Positions 22,977 through 32,923 of a stretch of 64,000 nucleotides of DNA are shown here, piece after piece. The translations under genes and the position numbers were made by a program. The notes under the pieces were generated by a model. The model searched no databases. It was not told where the DNA came from and saw only the letters and a program-made list of their open reading frames with translations. Source of the DNA: Eubacteriales bacterium (GTDB lineage Bacteria; Bacillota; Clostridia; Oscillospirales; Butyricicoccaceae); contig JAUNGZ010000001.1 of NCBI GenBank assembly GCA_030524205.1, forward strand, positions 103,528 through 167,527. The letters run 5' to 3'. Numbering within the stretch: the first letter of the stretch is position 1; each line of letters begins with the position of its first letter.

Positions 22977-23222
22977 ATGAGAAACGAAACCTTTTTCCCG
23001 CTGCCCGACCTGCCCGAAGGCGGACAGGCGCGAGTGCGCGCGCTGCACCTGTCGGGCGGCATGCGGCGCCGCCTGCAAGATCTCGGGCTGGTTGCGGGCA
23101 CGCGCGTCACCTGTTTGCAGCGCGCCGCCTCGGGCGACCCGACCGCCTACCTGATCCGCGGCGCGGTGATCGCGCTGCGCAATACCGACGCCGCGCAGGT
23201 TGAAGTGGGGGTGTCCCCTTGA
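22977..23222 (+). CDS. feoA: FeoA-type SH3-like protein
   Basis: An 81-residue cytosolic SH3-fold protein, typical of FeoA: RVRALHLSGGMRRRLQDLGL followed by GTRVTCLQRAASGDPTAYLI and RGAVIALR. FeoA is an accessory to the ferrous iron transporter FeoB. The gene ends GTGTCCCCTTGA and feoB begins at the overlapping TTG at 23219, the usual feoAB coupling. The upstream region (22886-22976) has no clear -10 box or Fur-like site that I could identify. Confidence 0.88.
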   Translation: MRNETFFPLPDLPEGGQARVRALHLSGGMRRRLQDLGLVAGTRVTCLQRAASGDPTAYLIRGAVIALRNTDAAQVEVGVSP

Positions 23223-24339
23223 AGCAGCCGGAAGCCTCCCCCGTAATCGCCCTTGCGGGCAATCCTAACGTCGGCAAGTCGACCGTGTTCAATGCGCTGA
23301 CGGGCGCGCATCAGCATACAGGGAACTGGGCCGGCAAGACGGTGGTAAACGCGCACGGCACGATGCGCTGCGGCGATACCAAGCTGACGCTGGTCGACCT
23401 GCCGGGTACTTATTCCCTGCGCGCCCGCTCGGAGGAGGAGCGCGCCGCGCGCGATTTTCTGCAAAGCGGCGCGGCCGACTGCACCGTGCTTGTCGCGGAC
23501 GCGACCTGTCTGGAGCGCAACCTGATTCTGGTTCTGCAAGTGCTCGAGGTGACCCCAAACGTCGTCCTATGCCTTAACCTGATGGACGAAGCGCGCAAAA
23601 AGCACATCGAAATCGACGTCGGCGCGCTTGAAAGCGAGCTGGGCATACCGGTCGTGCCGTGCGCCGCACGCCGGCGGCAGGGACTGCCCCAGCTGACGCG
23701 GGCGGTCTGCCGCGCGCTCGAAACCGGCGCGCCGGACAAAGTCGCGGCGATCCGTTATCCGGCGGCGCTCGAAACCGCCCTGCGGCAAACCGGCCTTGCG
23801 CGCGCGGAAGCGCTGGCCGCGCTATTGCAGGACCCACCCGAGGGCATGACCGCCCAGCAGGTCGACGACATGTTGACCGCCTCGGCCGCCCTGCGGGCCG
23901 AGGAAATCGCAATGACCTGCATGCTGCAAAGCGAAAGCGCCTGCCTGCGCGACCGCCGCATCGACCGCGTGCTGATGAGCCGGCGGTTCGGCGTTCCGCT
24001 GATGCTGCTGCTGCTCGCGCTGGTATTCTACATCACGCTGTTCGGCGCCAACGTGCCCAGCCAGTGGCTGGGCGACCGGCTGCTCGGCCTGACCGAACCG
24101 ATCGCGGCGGGGCTTGCCGCAATCGGCCTGCCGCCCTTCCTCGTGTCGCTGCTGACCGACGGCATGTGGCGCGTGCTGGCCACCGTCGTCTCGGTCATGC
24201 TGCCGCCGATGGCGATTTTCTTCCCGCTGTTCACGCTTTTGGAGGACGCGGGCTACCTGCCCCGCGTCGCCTTCCAGCTCGACCATTCGTTCCGCCGCGC
24301 GCACGCCTGCGGAAAGCAGAGCCTATCCATGTGCATGGG
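23219..24339 (+). pseudogene. feoB: feoB 5' portion, interrupted by an integrated element
   Basis: The first 373 codons of a ferrous iron transporter. The G domain is complete: GNPNVGKST (G1), LVDLPGTYS (G3), NLMDEA (G4 region), followed by the first membrane helices (VPLMLLLLALVFYITLFG). It starts at TTG 23219, overlapping feoA. The reading frame leaves FeoB inside the conserved segment SLSMCMGF, where the mobile element begins, and then runs open into element DNA to 25300, giving a nonsense tail antisense to the amidase gene. Joining 23219-24339 to 27937-28759 restores 647 codons in frame, so the gene is split but potentially repairable by excision. Confidence 0.93.
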
Positions 24340-24354
24340 TTTTCCGGCTCTGCG
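24316..24354 (+). other. attL: left junction of the feoB element
   Basis: The core CCATGTGCATGGG (24327-24339) is identical to that at the right junction. On the feoB side lies GCAGAGCC (24316-24323) and on the element side TTTTCCGGCTCTGCG (24340-24354), the mirror image of the element's other end. Within the core, CATG-TG-CATG is symmetric except for the central TG (24332-24333), a plausible crossover dinucleotide for a serine integrase. Confidence 0.88.
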
Positions 24355-24365
24355 CTTTTGCCCGG

Positions 24366-24404
24366 AAAAAGGGCTCCCGCCTGCCGCAGCCGGCGGGAGC
24401 CCTT
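24366..24404 (-). terminator. Terminator after the amidase gene
   Basis: A 13-bp stem (AAGGGCTCCCGCC 24369-24381 with GGCGGGAGCCCTT 24392-24404) is followed on the minus strand by a T run. Confidence 0.85.
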
Positions 24405-24415
24405 CTTGCTTCCCC

Positions 24416-25078
24416 TTATGCTTTGTACAGGCCCGCCCGGTCGTTTACGACCAGCGTGCGCAGCAGATCCTCCGTCAAGCCCAGACCGCTGCCGCCGCCC
24501 TGCAAATAGCCCTTTTCGACCAGCTTCTGCACTGTGGGCTTAGCCCAGCCGGGCACCTCGTCCACCGTGTTGTAACGATCGGCCGCAAGCGCGTCGTGCA
24601 CGATCCGCTTCACCTCATCCTCCGTCATCTCGTCCTCTCCCTCCTCATACCGCTGCACCGCCTCCCACGGATAGTTTTTGCCGGGGCAGTCGGTCGAATT
24701 GACGTCTTTATGCCGTTTGAGCGTCAGCGCGCCCAGCCGCTCCGTAATATCCCGCAGCAGCGCTTTCACGCTGACAAGCTGCGTCTCGGACATGGTCTCC
24801 ACCATGAAGTTTCCTTCACAGCAGACGCCGATCGAGCGGTCGTTGTGCCCGACCGCGTGCGCGCCGACCGCCCATTCCGGCCGGCCGCGGTAGACCTCGC
24901 CGTTTTTGCGGATATAATAGTGGTAGCCGATCCCCACCCAGCCGCGGTCCAAGTGCCAGCTGTTGACCGTCTCGACGCTCGCCGTCTCCGCTTCGGCGTG
25001 GTGCAGGATGATCTCGTCGGTTTTGCTGCGGTGCGTGAAAACGCCGTTGCGCCGGAGCGGCACCTCGATAATTTTCAT
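24416..25078 (-). CDS. N-acetylmuramoyl-L-alanine amidase (amidase_2/PGRP type), phage endolysin-like
   Basis: A 220-residue protein with an N-terminal zinc amidase domain: IILHHAEAE supplies the first zinc histidine, GIGYHYYIRKNGEVYRGR is the family core, and KRHKDVNSTDCPGKNYPW carries the second histidine and the cysteine ligand. It cleaves the MurNAc-L-Ala bond of peptidoglycan. The C-terminal ~70 residues (MTEDEVKRIVHDALAA; VEKGYLQG) look like a small phage-lysin attachment domain. Its start overlaps the holin gene by four bases. It is the final gene of the element's lysis cassette. Confidence 0.9.
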   Translation of the reverse strand: MKIIEVPLRRNGVFTHRSKTDEIILHHAEAETASVETVNSWHLDRGWVGIGYHYYIRKNGEVYRGRPEWAVGAHAVGHNDRSIGVCCEGNFMVETMSETQLVSVKALLRDITERLGALTLKRHKDVNSTDCPGKNYPWEAVQRYEEGEDEMTEDEVKRIVHDALAADRYNTVDEVPGWAKPTVQKLVEKGYLQGGGSGLGLTEDLLRTLVVNDRAGLYKA

Positions 25079-25347
25079 ACGCTGTCACCGCCTCCAAGCT
25101 GCTTGACGATCTGGTTGACGCCCGTCGCCGCAAGGCCGGACACAATGCCGATCGCAACCGCGGTGATCACGTCCGACGCCGCGAAATCAGGCATCACATG
25201 CATCGCCACCGGCCCCAGCACCGCGCCGGCCACACCGCATATGACCGGCAGCCACTTATTGTCGAGCGCCGTTGCCTTGACGATCTGGGCGATCAGATAG
25301 CAGATCACCGTAATCGCCGGAATTGCCGTAAACCCTAAATTTTCCAT
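25075..25347 (-). CDS. Phage holin family protein
   Basis: A 90-residue protein with an N-terminal membrane helix (GFTAIPAITVICYLIAQIVK), a middle hydrophobic segment (WLPVICGVAGAVLGPVAMHV) and a C-terminal amphipathic stretch ending in SGLAATGVNQIVKQLG. The pattern is that of phage holins from Firmicutes that precede an amidase. The stop overlaps the amidase ATG. It would permeabilise the membrane to release the amidase. Confidence 0.83.
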   Translation of the reverse strand: MENLGFTAIPAITVICYLIAQIVKATALDNKWLPVICGVAGAVLGPVAMHVMPDFAASDVITAVAIGIVSGLAATGVNQIVKQLGGGDSV

Positions 25348-25360
25348 TGCTATGCTCCTT

Positions 25361-25660
25361 TCATGCCAAATGGTCCGCCGCCTGTTGGTTCAAAAAGGCG
25401 ACGTAGCTTGCTTTCGCCTGCTCGTAAGCCTCGATGCCCTCCTCAACCTCTCCGTTGGCCACCCCGCGCTTGAGCGCCATCGCGGTCGCGTAGGACAGCT
25501 TCGCGGTCGCCATCTGCAGGCCGAGCGCCAGCAGGCTTTCCTGCTTTCTCGCTTGCGCGCGCGCCGCCGTCTCCTTGTCCCGCCGCGCCTGCGTCCGGTT
25601 GAACAGCGCCATGCATAACGCGGTCAGCAGCGACGGCAGCACAGATACCAGTATATTCAT
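25361..25660 (-). CDS. Small protein of the lysis cassette, function unknown
   Basis: A 99-residue protein with one N-terminal hydrophobic segment (ILVSVLPSLLTALCMALF) and a long charged helical remainder rich in Ala, Gln and Glu (QARRDKETAARAQARKQESL; EVEEGIEAYEQAKASY). It lies 13 bases before the holin gene. Similar small proteins precede holins in Clostridial phage lysis modules, but I do not recognise a named family. It may be an accessory or antiholin-like factor; that is inference. Confidence 0.6.
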   Translation of the reverse strand: MNILVSVLPSLLTALCMALFNRTQARRDKETAARAQARKQESLLALGLQMATAKLSYATAMALKRGVANGEVEEGIEAYEQAKASYVAFLNQQAADHLA

Positions 25661-25742
25661 CTCTCCGTCCTTTCTGACCCGCTTCCCCTGTTCTTTTGCC
25701 GATTGGGCTGTGGATTTGTCCCCCTTTGGTCAAGCTGGAAAA

Positions 25743-25801
25743 ATATATTGCGCTTTTATTGCAATATTTTATTTGACATCCTCATGCCTGTATGCTATTA
25801 T
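25743..25801 (+). promoter_or_regulatory. cspA promoter and adjacent AT-rich dyad
   Basis: TTGACA (25773-25778), a 17-base spacer and TATTAT (25796-25801) form a strong promoter. Just upstream, an inverted repeat ATATTGC/GCAATAT (about 25745-25767) sits in the divergent control region between the lysis cassette and cspA. Confidence 0.82.
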
Positions 25802-25923
25802 TGATGTACAGTCCAAATGTATCAATCAACTCACTTCTTGTAAGTCATTGTTCTTTTGATGATTTGCGAGGCGTGGGTTTTTTTATTTGCACGAGGATAA
25901 TTTTTTTAGGAGGTATCTTTACT

Positions 25924-26136
25924 ATGAGTACAGGTACGGTAAAATGGTTTAATTCCGAAAAGGGCTTCGGCTTCATCAAGAACGACGACGGCAGCGACGA
26001 TCTGTTCGTCCACTTCTCCGCCATCCAGTCTGACGGCTACAAGTCGCTCGACGAAGGCCAGCGCGTTGAATTCGACGCCGAGGTCGACCCCAAGAACAGC
26101 AGCAAGATGCGCGCTGTCAACGTCCGCACGATCTAA
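25924..26136 (+). CDS. Cold-shock domain protein carried by the element
   Basis: A 70-residue CspA-family single-stranded nucleic acid-binding protein. The first strands read [16 protein letters not shown] (RNP1 KGFGFI) and the second motif is [10 protein letters not shown] (RNP2). The ATG is preceded by AGGAGGT. The mRNA has a leader of about 115 bases (25808-25923), as is usual for cold-shock genes. It lies wholly inside the feoB element, with its own strong promoter. Whether it is cargo, an integration or excision co-factor, or a captured host gene cannot be told from sequence. Confidence 0.93.
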
Positions 26137-26240
26137 AAAGAAAATCGTTTGCGACCACGCTCGCAAACGAAAAACGCACTTTAAAAAGTGCTATTGCAGC
26201 GAAGCGGCCACGGAATCATGATTCCGTGGCCGCGCTGCGG
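26137..26240 (+). repeat. Short hairpin array, copy F, inside the feoB element
   Basis: It begins one base after the cspA stop. TCGTTTGCGA-CCACGC-TCGCAAACGA (26145-26170) matches the position and loop (CACG) of the first module of other copies. GCACTTTAAAAAGTGC follows, then the linker CTATTGCAG and a perfect 30-bp palindrome (26204-26233) centred on GGAATCATGATTCC. The linker and the GGAATC...GATTCC stem recur in copies A and C. Confidence 0.7.
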
Positions 26241-26403
26241 CTCGGGGGATTTCTTCGGTCTGCGGCGCAGAGGGGCCGTGCCGCGCGAGCGCTTGCAGCG
26301 TGCGCGCCGCTTCGGGCGGCAGCGCACGCGGCTCCAAATAGCCGGACAGCGATCCGCGCACCATCCCGTCCGCCATCAGATTTTCGACCGTGATTTCTTC
26401 CAT
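26191..26403 (-). CDS. Small ORF divergent from the recombinase, unknown function
   Basis: A 70-residue reading frame starting at the ATG at 26403 after GGGAGGGGAG. The first 45 residues (MEEITVENLMADGMV; EPRALPPEAARTLQALARHG) look protein-like. The last 15 are encoded by the 30-bp palindrome of array F, so the native C-terminus is doubtful. It is 111 bases from the recombinase in the opposite direction. Small genes in this position sometimes encode excision factors, but I have no sequence evidence for that. Confidence 0.4.
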   Translation of the reverse strand: MEEITVENLMADGMVRGSLSGYLEPRALPPEAARTLQALARHGPSAPQTEEIPRAAARPRNHDSVAASLQ

Positions 26404-26514
26404 GCGTCTCCCCTCCCGCTCCATCCTATGCGGGAAGTCGCGCGGTCAGCGCCGGATTTTTTCGGCAAGCCCCGCCCCTTTCCGCCATATGCTTTGGTGG
26501 AAGGGGGATTTTTT

Positions 26515-27906
26515 ATGCCCGCGAAACAGCTTCCGGCGCAAAGCCGCCCGGTCGTCGGCTATGTCCGCGTATCGACCGAAAACCAGCTGGAAAATTACAG
26601 CATCGACGAGCAGCGGCGGCGTGTTTCCGCTTACTGTCAGGCCAAGGGCTGGCGGCTGCGCCAAATCTACACCGACGGCGGCTTTTCCGGCGGCACGACC
26701 GACCGGCCCGCGCTCCGGCGGATGCTGGACGAGATCCGCAAGGGCGGCGTTGCGGCGGTCGTCGTTTACAAGCTTGACCGCCTCAGCCGCAGCCAAAAGG
26801 ACACGCTCACGCTGATCGAGGACGAATTTCTCGCAAACGGCGCGGATTTCGTCTCGATCTGCGAAAATTTCGACACATCCACGCCGTTCGGCCGCGCGAT
26901 GATCGGCATTCTGTCCGTTTTCGCCCAGCTTGAAAAGGAGCAGATCACCGAGCGCTTCACCATGGGCCGCATCGGGCGCGGCAAGGCGGGCTACTACCAC
27001 GGCGGGCCGTCCATCCCGTTCGGCTACCGCTACGCGGACGGACTGCTCGCGCCCGACGCATACCGCGCCGCGCTGGTGCGCGAGATTTTTGAACGCTTCT
27101 GCGCCGGGCAGAGCCTGTCGTCCATCTGCCGCGCGATGGAGCAGGCCTGCCCCGGCAAATGGAGCACGGCCAAGCTCCGCTACCTGCTGCGCAACACCAA
27201 CTACATCGGCAAGGTAAAATTCCGCGGCGTGACCTACGACGGCGTGCACCAGCCGCTTGTCGGCCGGCAGACCTTTGAGGCCGCCCAGCGGCTGCTCGAC
27301 GCGCGGCGCGCCAACGGCGCGCCCTTCCGCGCGGGCACGCTGCTGTCCGGCCTGCTGTACTGCGGGCGCTGCGGCGCGCGGTACGCGGGCGCGCACGGCT
27401 TCTATAAATGCTATTCGCGCGCGAAAACCTCCAAGGCGCGCGTGATCGACCCCGCCTGCAACAACGCGCACTGGAAAACCGAAGCGCTCGACGGCGCGGT
27501 CTGGCAGCAGCTCGCACTGCTGCTCTCCCCCGCCGTGCTCGCCTCCGCCCTGCGGGAGGAGGACGGCGCGCCCCCGCCCGATCCCGCCGCCGCGCGCCGC
27601 CGCTTGACCCAGATCGAAGCCGAGCGCGGGCGGCTGGCCGAGCTGTATCAGACCGGCGCGCTTCCGCTGGACACGCTGACCGCACGCGCGGCGGCGCTGC
27701 GGGCCGAAGCCGGCGGCCTGCACGCCTTGCTCGCGGCGCAGGCGCCGCCCGCACCCGCGCCGGACGAACGGGCCGCGCGAACCGCCGAACGGCTCGCGCG
27801 CGGCTTTCCGGACGCGCCGCTCGAAACGCGCCGCCAGCTCGTCCGGTCGCTGATTCGTAAAATCACGCTCGACGGGCCGAGCGTCCGCATCGAGTGGCGC
27901 GTTTGA
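26515..27906 (+). CDS. Large serine recombinase (site-specific integrase)
   Basis: A 463-residue large serine recombinase. The N-terminal resolvase domain has the catalytic serine at residue 20 (GYVRVSTENQLENYSIDEQ), KLDRLSRSQKDTL and ENFDTSTPFGRAMIGILSVF. A recombinase domain follows (GRIGRGKAGYYHGGPSIPFG), then a zinc ribbon (LLYCGRCGARYAG; FYKCYSR) and a C-terminal coiled-coil stretch (RRRLTQIEAERGRLAELY). I start at the ATG at 26515 because GGAAGGGGG precedes it. It ends two bases before the right arm of the element, the usual integrase-att arrangement. It should catalyse attP x attB integration into feoB, and excision with a directionality factor. Confidence 0.95.
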   Translation: MPAKQLPAQSRPVVGYVRVSTENQLENYSIDEQRRRVSAYCQAKGWRLRQIYTDGGFSGGTTDRPALRRMLDEIRKGGVAAVVVYKLDRLSRSQKDTLTLIEDEFLANGADFVSICENFDTSTPFGRAMIGILSVFAQLEKEQITERFTMGRIGRGKAGYYHGGPSIPFGYRYADGLLAPDAYRAALVREIFERFCAGQSLSSICRAMEQACPGKWSTAKLRYLLRNTNYIGKVKFRGVTYDGVHQPLVGRQTFEAAQRLLDARRANGAPFRAGTLLSGLLYCGRCGARYAGAHGFYKCYSRAKTSKARVIDPACNNAHWKTEALDGAVWQQLALLLSPAVLASALREEDGAPPPDPAAARRRLTQIEAERGRLAELYQTGALPLDTLTARAAALRAEAGGLHALLAAQAPPAPAPDERAARTAERLARGFPDAPLETRRQLVRSLIRKITLDGPSVRIEWRV

Positions 27907-27907
27907 A

Positions 27908-27944
27908 CGCAGAGCCGGAAAACCCATGTGCATGGGCTTCGGCT
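27908..27944 (+). other. attR: right junction of the feoB element
   Basis: The element arm CGCAGAGCCGGAAAA (27908-27922) is followed by the core CCATGTGCATGGG (27924-27936) and feoB sequence CTTCGGCT. The arm is the exact inverse complement of the left element arm. Confidence 0.88.
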
Positions 27945-28759
27945 GCAACGCCTGCGGCGTGACCGGCTGCCGCATCATCGACAGCCCGCGCGAGCGGCTG
28001 ATCGCCATGCTGACCAATTCGTTCGCGCCGTGCAACGGCCGGTTTCCGCTGCTGATTTTCCTGTGCTCGGTCTTTTTCGCGGGCAGCGCGGTCGGCGGGT
28101 CGCTGCTGCTGACCGCCGTGATCGCGGGCAGCGTCGTGCTGACGCTCGCGGCCTCCCGTCTGCTGTCCGCCACGATTTTGAAGGGCGTGCCGTCGTCCTT
28201 TACGCTCGAGCTGCCGCCCTACCGCGCCCCGCAGCTTGGCAAGGTGATCGTGCGCAGCGTGTTTGACCGCACGCTGTTCGTGCTCGGACGCGCGGTCGCC
28301 GTGGCCGCCCCCGCCGGACTGCTCATCTGGCTGCTCGCCAACATCACGGTGGGCGACACCTCGGTTTTCCAGCACCTTGCCGCCTTTCTCGACCCGCTGG
28401 GCCGCCTGATCGGGCTGGACGGCGTGATCCTGCTTGCCTTTATTCTCGGGTTCCCGGCAAACGAGCTGGTCATGCCGCTGATCGTCATGGGCTATCTTGC
28501 CACGGGCACGCTGACCGATATCACCAGCCTGCAGTCCTTTCACGCGCTGCTGCTGGCCAACGGCTGGACGGTGTCCACCGCGCTGTGCACGCTGGTTTTC
28601 ACCGTTGCGCACTGGCCCTGCTCGACCACGTGCCTGACCATCTGGAAGGAGAGCCGCAGCGCGAAATGGACGCTGGCCTCCATCGCCCTGCCGACGCTGT
28701 TCGGCTTTGTGCTGTGCTTTGCCGTGTCGGCCGTCTGCCGCTTGTGCGGATTGACGTGA
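27926..28759 (+). pseudogene. feoB: feoB 3' portion, downstream of the integrated element
   Basis: The open frame from ATG 27926 to TGA 28759 encodes the C-terminal FeoB membrane region: MCMGFGCNACGVTGCRII, SPRERLIAMLTNSFAPCNGRF, then several helices including LLIFLCSVFFAGSAVGGS and the gate/core segment GFPANELVMPLIVMGYL. The ATG is part of the recombination core, and no promoter or ribosome-binding site precedes it, so it is probably not expressed as a separate protein. It connects in frame to the 5' portion if the element leaves. A terminator follows at 28761-28790. Confidence 0.92.
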
Positions 28760-31436: not shown

Positions 31437-31462
31437 GCGCCCCCTCTTTTCAGAGGGGGCGC
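31437..31462. terminator. Hairpin between pcrA and sigF
   Basis: GCGCCCCCTCT-TTTC-AGAGGGGGCGC lies between the convergent genes. It has no long T run on either side, so it is a weaker terminator candidate. Confidence 0.6.
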
Positions 31463-32169
31463 TATTCGATCAGTTTTTCCCGCAGCGCCTCGATCGCGCG
31501 CTTTTCGATGCGCGAAATCTGCACCTGCGATACGCCGATGACCTTGGCCGCCTGCTGCTGCGTCAGATCGCGGACAAAGCGCAGGGCGAGCACCTCGCGG
31601 TCGCGCTCGGGCAGCGTTTTGATCGCCTCGCCCAGCGACAGATACAGGCAGGCGCGCTCCTCCATGCCCTCGTCGCCCACCAGATCGCCCAAGCGCCCGC
31701 CGCCCGCCAGCTCGCGCTCGAACGAATCGACCGCCACATCGGCCTGCTCGCAGGCGGCGACCTCCTCGTTTGTCAGCCCGGTGGCCGCCGCCAGCTCGGA
31801 AACGGTCGGGGAACGGCCGGTTTTGCTTTCCAGCTCGCTCTGCACCCGCCGCACCCGCACGGCGCGCTCCTTTACCGTGCGGCTGACCTTGACCGCGCCG
31901 TCGTCGCGCAGGAACCGGCGGATCTCGCCCGCGATTTTGGGCACCGCGTAGGTCGAAAACTCGTTGCCGAGCGCCGGATCGAAGCCGCGCACCGCCTTGA
32001 TAAAGCCGACGCAGGCAAGCTGGTACAGGTCGTCCGGCTCGGCGCCGCGGCCGTAATACCGCCGGGCGATCGACCAGATCAGGCCGCTGTTGGTTTCGAT
32101 CAGACGCGCCTCCGCGCCGCTGTCGCCCGCGGCCGCGGCCTGTAACAGGCCGCGCATTTCACTCGTCAC
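31462..32169 (-). CDS. sigF: Sporulation sigma factor SigF
   Basis: A 235-residue sigma-70 family factor. Region 2 shows DDLYQLACVGFIKAVRGFDP and FSTYAVPKIAGEIRRFLRDD, region 3 VKVSRTVKERAVRVRR, and region 4 LPERDREVLALRFVRDLTQQ with the helix-turn-helix AAKVIGVSQVQISRIEKRA. Its identity rests on the operon spoIIAA-spoIIAB-sigF. It starts at GTG 32169, overlapping the spoIIAB stop by three bases. SigF is the first forespore-specific sigma factor and is held inactive by SpoIIAB. Confidence 0.96.
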   Translation of the reverse strand: MTSEMRGLLQAAAAGDSGAEARLIETNSGLIWSIARRYYGRGAEPDDLYQLACVGFIKAVRGFDPALGNEFSTYAVPKIAGEIRRFLRDDGAVKVSRTVKERAVRVRRVQSELESKTGRSPTVSELAAATGLTNEEVAACEQADVAVDSFERELAGGGRLGDLVGDEGMEERACLYLSLGEAIKTLPERDREVLALRFVRDLTQQQAAKVIGVSQVQISRIEKRAIEALREKLIE

Positions 32170-32609
32170 GCGCCGCGCTCCGCCAGCGTTTTGACCATGG
32201 TCACAAGCGTCCCCTTGCCCGGCGTCGAGCGCACGCGCAGGCGGTCGGTGAAGGTCTCCATGATCGTAAAGCCCATGCCCGAGCGCGTGTCGTCGCCCGT
32301 GGTGAACATCGGCTGCCGCGCCTGCTCGACATTGGCGATGCCGCAGCCGGCGTCCTTGATTTTGAGCTCGAGCACACGGCCCTCAAACAACCGCACGGTA
32401 ACGGTGATAAAGCCCAGCTTGTCCGCGTAGCCGTGCACGATGGCGTTGGTGACCGCCTCGGACACCACGGTTTTGATATCGCCCAGCTCCTCCATCGTCG
32501 GGTCGAGCTGCGCGGTGAAAGCGCCGACCGCCTGACGGGCAAACGCCTCGTTGACCGAGCGGCTTTCAAATTTAAGGCTCATTTTATTGATGACGGCACG
32601 CATGCTCAT
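32166..32609 (-). CDS. spoIIAB: Anti-sigma F factor / serine kinase SpoIIAB
   Basis: A 147-residue GHKL-type ATPase. The N box is TVVSEAVTNAIVHGY, the G1 box KIKDAGCGI, and the later glycine-rich region DDTRSGMGFTIMETFTD. SpoIIAB binds SigF and phosphorylates SpoIIAA. QLDPTMEELGDIKTVVSEA is close to the Bacillus protein. The start may be the ATG at 32609, overlapping the spoIIAA stop (ATGA), or the ATG at 32603. Confidence 0.95.
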   Translation of the reverse strand: MSMRAVINKMSLKFESRSVNEAFARQAVGAFTAQLDPTMEELGDIKTVVSEAVTNAIVHGYADKLGFITVTVRLFEGRVLELKIKDAGCGIANVEQARQPMFTTGDDTRSGMGFTIMETFTDRLRVRSTPGKGTLVTMVKTLAERGA

Positions 32610-32923
32610 TCCCCCCTCTCAAAAATCATAACCTGCGGCAGGCCGGCCGCCTCAAATACCCGCATGGGCTGCGGCGGCGTGCCGCGCACGACAAAATCGT
32701 AACCTGCGCGCGCACAGGTACGGTGCAGATGCAGCACGACCGCAAGGCCGGACGAATCCATGAACGTCAGCCCGGACAGATCGAGCGCCAGCCTTTGGCA
32801 GGGATAGAGCACAAGCAGGTCCTCGGCCTGCTCAATCGCCGCGCGCGCCGCGTGGTGGTCCAGCTCGCCCGCGAGCGAGATCGTCAGCGCGCCGTCGCGC
32901 TCGGTCTGCGTGATATGTAACAT
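32606..32923 (-). CDS. spoIIAA: Anti-anti-sigma factor SpoIIAA
   Basis: A 105-residue STAS-domain protein. The phosphorylated serine lies in LTFMDSSGLAVVL (Ser57/Ser58). Dephosphorylated SpoIIAA binds SpoIIAB and frees SigF. It is first in the operon, with AGAGGTGA before the ATG. The space between its start and the preceding terminator is only about 30 bases; a GAAT-containing stretch there could be part of a sigma H-type promoter, but no matching upstream element is clear. Confidence 0.95.
   Translation of the reverse strand: MLHITQTERDGALTISLAGELDHHAARAAIEQAEDLLVLYPCQRLALDLSGLTFMDSSGLAVVLHLHRTCARAGYDFVVRGTPPQPMRVFEAAGLPQVMIFERGE

Follow-up and report, generated by a model that had tools for sequence, protein, structure and literature searches.

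A feoB gene split by a large serine recombinase element at a recurrently used site in an Agathobaculum-like genus

Organization of the split feoB locus

The window, a DNA stretch of 64,000 nucleotides (contig JAUNGZ010000001.1, assembly GCA_030524205.1), carries feoA and, next to it, the ferrous iron transporter gene feoB, which is divided in two by an intervening element with its own large serine recombinase (LSR) and with attachment (att) sites at both ends (Table 1). The window is contig C24 of an Agathobaculum-like metagenome-assembled genome (MAG) of 2.2 Mb and 82% completeness, here called G000, and the genus is taken as Agathobaculum. Deletion of 24340-27936 leaves 1,119 + 825 = 1,944 nt, a length divisible by three, and joins the halves in frame; the empty site then reads KQSLSMCMGFGCNACGVT, a motif that is unbroken in intact relatives. 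The LSR ends at 27906, 17 bp ahead of the right core. The two ends of the element form an inverted repeat with 20/20 positions paired around a central TG, as expected of the attP of an LSR, and integration and excision would take place at this TG-centred site. The original prediction for this DNA had described the identical 13-bp cores, the exact in-frame rejoining, the intact recombinase beside attR and the lack of decay in either half, and all four descriptions were confirmed.

The Resolvase, Recombinase and zinc-ribbon domains, the short core common to attL and attR and the inverted repeat of the attP arms mark the insert as an integrated LSR element. In structure it also resembles a gene-intervening element: the host gene is split, its frame is restored by precise removal and intact relatives exist. 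Its phage genes comprise lysis and integrase functions only, short of the structural, replication and lysis genes of a prophage, and judged by this content the element is the remnant of a deleted prophage (lysis genes, cold-shock gene and LSR). Among the 12 best-listed phage matches, the integrases of phages BUCT702, phiFC1, EFC-1 and BL3 are 43–44% identical to the window LSR in alignments covering 68–79% of it. A cold-shock gene upstream of the LSR is also found in Intestinibacillus.

Table 1. Features of the split feoB locus in window coordinates; the last row lies on another contig of the same genome.
Feature	Position	Strand	Evidence and remarks
feoA	22977..23222	+	Pfam FeoA 1.1e-18; overlaps feoB start
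feoB 5' half, 373 codons: G domain and first half of first Gate domain	23219..24337	+	Pfam FeoB_N 9.6e-58; Gate profile positions 2-54 of 104; internal stops 0
attL core CCATGTGCATGGG	24327..24339	+	13 bp; putative central TG at 24332-24333
Element-side arm of attL (attP right half)	24334..24353	+	Pairs 20/20 with other-end arm around TG
Intervening element	24340..27936	.	3,597 bp, one core copy included
Phage N-acetylmuramoyl-L-alanine amidase (endolysin)	24416..25078	-	Pfam Amidase_2 1.7e-19; PHROG lysis/amidase 3.4e-35
Phage holin, Hol44 family	25075..25347	-	Pfam Phage_holin_5_2 1.8e-21; PHROG holin 9.5e-21
Small phage protein adjoining holin	25361..25660	-	phrog_9428 4e-10; Pfam none at E 0.01
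Cold-shock protein gene (csp)	25924..26136	+	Pfam CSD 4e-28; 91% over 67 aa to L079 (Intestinibacillus)
Large serine recombinase (LSR, integrase), 463 aa	26515..27906	+	Pfam Resolvase 2.5e-40, Recombinase 1.3e-13, Zn_ribbon_recom 9.4e-10; phrog_95 integrase 3e-112
Element-side arm of attR (attP left half)	27909..27928	+	Inverted-repeat partner of attL arm
attR core CCATGTGCATGGG	27924..27936	+	13 bp, identical to attL core; putative central TG at 27929-27930
feoB 3' half: rest of first Gate, FeoB_C, second Gate	27926..28759	+	Pfam Gate 3.7e-13 (two stretches), FeoB_C 1.7e-12
sigG locus of G000	G000:C46:5712-7596 (L228)		Further loci L013-L028, L272-L291

Recurrence of the split in the genus and beyond

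A set of 25 genus genomes was searched with the N-half and the C-half, and the junctions were read. The feoB of the window type was found in 23 of them; 18 are split at the window's site, and five (G002, G012, G013, G018 and G021) carry an intact feoB with an empty site, the kind of relative that the original prediction had proposed to look for. Because 17 further genomes are split at the same codons as the window, a chance origin of the 13-bp core was set aside. The searches found no feoB of the window type in G007 and G016 (86% and 80% complete). The same split is present in a single-contig genome (G005), a two-contig genome (G001) and named isolates, among them A. desmolans ATCC 43058 and Agathobaculum sp. 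Marseille-P7918. Where both halves lie on one contig (10 genomes), the inserts measure 3.6 to 34.5 kb; the 34.5-kb insert (L162-L163, G014:C17) has sugar-kinase-, aldolase- and transporter-like genes, as judged by eye, between the LSR and attR.

Three types of element ends occur at the genus site: type A in the window, type B in 15 genomes and type C in G004 and G005, with G008 known by its C-half only and G023 by its left end only. Type B ends read GCATCC..CCAAGCA-TG-TGCTTGG..GGATGC, with variation. Type C LSRs are 59–60% identical to the window LSR by blastp and 63% in another comparison, and the type C element of G005 carries head, portal, amidase and holin genes. The site is used by three or more types of element, that of the window among them. 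G023 (L238/L071, G023:C20) shows a third feoB break, where another LSR comes to its end immediately ahead of residue 37 of the C-half; the C-part that remains lacks the first 36 residues.

At the order level, 159 of 394 genomes gave a match; among the 150 listed, 139 lie outside the genus, and 12 of these have short frames. Eleven of the 12 were examined, the twelfth (G163) being a contig edge. Nine are broken at the feoB site, and the apparent splits of G135 and G091 were rejected once their sequences had been inspected. An LSR lies within 50 bp of the site in five of the nine (A-like in G243 and G281, B-like in G124, G266 and G431) and a B-like LSR lies 0.9 kb from it in G045, while in G303, G138 and G160 no LSR was found within the stretch fetched. 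A scan of a genome collection gave 80 loci among the matches listed, 74 of them outside the genus and 5 of the 74 broken at the site. One of the five, Intestinibacillus, has an A-like as well as a B-like LSR. The feoB of Intestinibacillus massiliensis (L079:554-10837) has at least two breaks, in the order LSR before codon 319, codons 319-373, a composite insert (B-type LSR on the left, csp and A-type LSR on the right) and then the C-half.

Inheritance of the type B elements

Every type B genome (15 in all) has exactly one type B LSR (64–100% identical to the G009 query), on the same contig as a feoB half in all of them except G008 and G015 (13/15). No LSR at this level was found in the rest of the 25-genome set, which includes the five intact genomes and the three of types A and C. 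The distances among type B LSRs follow those of the host markers FeoB-N, FeoB-C and UvrD (Mantel r of 0.83, 0.61 and 0.79 over 14, 14 and 15 genomes, respectively; p ≤ 0.0004), and an eight-genome LSR clade (SH-aLRT 100) matches a UvrD clade, intact G021 aside. The cargo is likewise shared. The order PAP-YibEF-apt-azgA-PDA-LSR(-) is repeated in G009, G014, G017 and G020, recurs without its first two genes (PAP and YibEF) in G010 and G019, and is represented by apt-azgA with LSR(-) in G001, G024 and, over two contigs, G022, so that apt-azgA-LSR(-) is common to nine genomes. With the G001 query, azgA was found at 85–94% identity. In 11 type B genomes it is either inside the feoB insert or on the same contig as the LSR or one of the feoB halves; in G002, G003, G012 and G013 it is located elsewhere. 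On these grounds the type B split looks old and inherited.

Selection on the halves and intact sister genomes

No stop codon occurs in the 22 N-halves or the 22 C-halves, those of the window included. For pairs with dS (synonymous divergence) of 0.05–1.5, the median ratio of nonsynonymous to synonymous divergence (dN/dS) among split type B pairs is 0.174 for the N-half (90 pairs) and 0.124 for the C-half (90 pairs), against 0.117 for UvrD (105 pairs); the split pairs are no higher than pairs of intact genes (0.252, 9 pairs, and 0.199, 10 pairs, respectively). In the closest split pair, G017/G020, the C-half has dN of 0.007 and dS of 0.38. The type B att arms show identities of 0.82/0.80 over their first 18 nt versus 0.24–0.45 beyond (13 genomes), a contrast that loses some of its weight as a sign of conserved arms in that the low identity beyond them may partly reflect different cargo.

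Trees of FeoB and of FeoB+UvrD, built without G023 and G008, place intact G018 as sister of split G022 and intact G021 as sister of split G006, with FeoB-tree support of 98/93 and 100/100. G018 has no azgA candidate, whereas its sister G022 has azgA on the contig of its N-half; G006 also has no azgA candidate although it is split. In addition, G012, whose feoB is intact, has a phage-like contig that carries an LSR together with families of replicative helicase, regulator and integrase. A site directly behind this LSR, spotted by eye and not listed by the automatic repeat search, matches G012's own intact feoB over 15 bp, codon variants included (2,000 random 50-mers gave a maximum of 11), and another phage-family match lies on the far side of the site. 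This site is likely, not certainly, an unintegrated attP, because its repeat is imperfect and the match is on the opposite strand. Taken together, the selection, the conserved arms, the intact sisters and G012 favour repeated precise excision, with multiple gains as a possible alternative.

The right core supplies an ATG for the C-half. In the window this ATG follows shortly behind the LSR stop and has a weak Shine-Dalgarno (SD) sequence (-3.5 kcal/mol); in type B C-halves none of the 14 core ATGs has one (+0.4 to +3.7), compared with -6.4 to -11.5 for five control genes of the window, and type C has ATC in place of the ATG. As most C-halves have no ribosome site, a working FeoB from the split locus most likely needs joining of the DNA.

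Interpretation and alternative explanations

The observations may be explained by reversible LSR insertion at a shared attB in feoB, with excision keeping the gene under selection, an account that is considered probable by a modest measure. The stretch of feoB encoding SL[ST]MCMGFGCN would serve as an attB shared by clostridial LSRs. A temperate phage would have integrated at the window's copy through its own LSR and would later have been mostly deleted, leaving intact attL and attR sites that enclose the lysis genes, the cold-shock gene and the LSR. Because integration cuts feoB midway through its first Gate domain, the window copy should yield no full-length FeoB; recombination of attL with attR by the LSR, together with a directionality factor, would restore the frame exactly. 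The intact allele would have to be rebuilt, in some cells, lineages or conditions, often enough to be seen by selection, because the split recurs and, in the type B lineage, looks old, yet purifying selection still acts on the halves and the att arms have been conserved. The sequences themselves show the insertion, the att structure, the recurrence, the co-inheritance, the low dN/dS and the intact sisters of split species, and excision in living cells would be what maintains selection on feoB.

Several results weigh against reversible insertion. No excised junction of the window's own element was seen. The attP patterns of types A and B had no match in viral contigs, where a search that reaches close relatives only gave LSR relatives at no more than 31–40% identity. 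The type B attP expected of free circles had no match in the 25 genus genomes, the type A pattern being sought in viral contigs only, and no directionality factor was identified. The minimum number of changes between the split and intact states is five, and gains are not distinguished from losses. The UvrD tree alone sets G021 outside eight split genomes and not beside G006, so that a loss of the element in G021 is not required. Inside the eight-genome clade the LSR tree conflicts with the host order (G006, G015 and G020), and some exchange is therefore likely. The putative attP of G012 is an imperfect repeat (14/20 paired), six other places on its contig pair better in a 16-base test, and its match to feoB and the LSR are on opposite strands, which is not so in the window. 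Among the C-halves, one of the 14 of type B (G008) has a good SD sequence (-10.3) at a start further upstream, and weak ones occur in G011 and G003. Finally, G000 holds two further FeoB proteins with all FeoB domains, which could make the split copy dispensable; the physiological effect of the split may accordingly be modest.

The strongest of the competing explanations is plain insertional inactivation, in which the element is a stranded prophage remnant, feoB is permanently off and iron uptake is left to the other FeoB proteins. The reduction of the phage to lysis and integrase genes, the two full-domain FeoB of G000 and the lack of attP matches agree with it, and for the window alone it is quite possible. 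The window halves are stop-free and the att arms perfect, however, and in the 15 relatives with type B elements selection persists despite a split that looks old; taken as a whole, this explanation is regarded as rather unlikely. The presence of the other FeoB was also considered as a sign that the split feoB is dead, and was rejected for the type B species, where selection on the halves argues against loss.

The original prediction had gone on to propose that excision, triggered by iron, development or stress, may switch ferrous iron uptake on and off, in the way of skin in sigK or the prophage in comK. Its first part, insertion by an LSR at an att site, stands, while a switch of the cell's ferrous iron uptake is weakened by the two other FeoB. 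Conservation of the halves, the LSR and the att arms in type B species would suit such regulation, and precedents are described for other genes (PMC5595907, PMC10794523). Against it, neither a triggering condition nor a regulator nor a directionality factor was found, and the window element is a shrunken prophage. Nor is feoB known to be a sporulation gene. A regulated switch is considered unlikely.

Assembly of FeoB from two half polypeptides would make excision unnecessary. Each half is open, the core offers an ATG with a weak SD sequence in the window, and G008 has a good one; the missing SD sequences at the core ATG of 14 type B C-halves, the ATC of type C and the cut inside a Gate domain make this explanation very improbable. 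Separate translation of the C-half is accordingly unlikely for most type B genomes and is kept open for G008. An assembly or binning artefact, for which the 82% completeness of the MAG might speak, can be practically dismissed, since the halves and the element lie on one contig and the same split is found in G005, G001 and the named isolates.

Relation to known intervening elements

The elements skin (in sigK), SPbeta (spsM) and gin (gerE) resemble the feoB element as described in PMC5595907, PMC4191935 and PMC5025042, with an LSR and attL/attR around a split host gene whose frame is restored by precise excision. The gin element is described as free of phage genes (PMC5595907); likewise, a scan of 10 proteins from type B elements (G017 and G001) gave the recombinase as the only phage family by name. 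Known intervening elements lie mainly in sporulation or competence genes (compare PMC5595907). Unlike the hosts of skin, SPbeta and gin, feoB is an iron transporter gene (FeoA and FeoB domains) and is not specific to sporulation. The feoB case further differs in that several unrelated elements use one site, one kind being apparently inherited across the genus, and in that it is known here from sequence alone. Listeria phage A118 uses an LSR. Its excision from comK, described as active lysogeny (PMC10794523), leaves an in-frame host gene, as is predicted for feoB; unlike A118, the phage of the window is reduced to lysis genes and the LSR.

Durrant et al. (2022; PMC10083194) have described distant LSRs that converge on one conserved attB within a coding sequence, and the feoB site appears similar. 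The same account ties the domain DUF4368 to multi-targeting LSRs (PMC10083194). DUF4368 was present in all four type B LSRs scanned (of 15 in all), which, unlike those multi-targeting LSRs, occur once per genome. The word 'ferrous' does not occur in the main text of PMC10083194, and no report of feoB as an attB was found in the literature searched, a body that most subscription journals lay outside.

The significance of the split lies in an iron-import gene of a gut genus that is divided at one codon in 18 of 23 species genomes, by at least three kinds of element and with selection on both halves. Should excision really occur, the capacity for iron uptake read from assembled genomes would be wrong, and the FeoB state could vary within a strain. 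In addition, the LSRs of types A, B and C with their matched att sites would provide natural and testable recombination pairs.

A split sigG in the same genus

An LSR 43–45% identical to that of the window was found in 22 of the 25 genus genomes (not in G002, G016 and G021). It was considered as another feoB LSR and rejected, as it lies at sigG. TIGR02850 detects a separate C-part of sigG (about positions 92-254) in 22/25 genomes and a detached N-part (about 2-96), with a second sigma-factor match nearby, in 21/25; the gene is whole only in G016 and, over 2-236, in G002. The LSR lies directly before the C-part in 16/16 loci examined. The two parts are separated by 112 kb in G001; in G005 they are on opposite strands at a distance of 757 kb. 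No N-part was found in G000. The split ends, read by eye, are ACGTTCAT-GCCG-ATGAACGT, and no strong SD sequence precedes the C-part ATG among seven readable starts. By the arrangement of these loci, sigG is split by an LSR related to that of the window.

A bolder and unlikely proposal is that an inherited DUF4368 LSR and its att pair act as a domesticated, genus-wide switch that splits and rejoins feoB on cue, that phages with unrelated LSRs exploit the site, and that a further LSR acts likewise at sigG. If this were true, programmed gene reassembly would be a routine layer of control in these gut commensals, outside the mother cell.

Downstream of feoB-uvrD, the window has spoIIA-like genes at 31462-32923 (sigma factor, anti-sigma and antagonist, judged by eye), and a SigG-profile match lies at G000:C24:135004.

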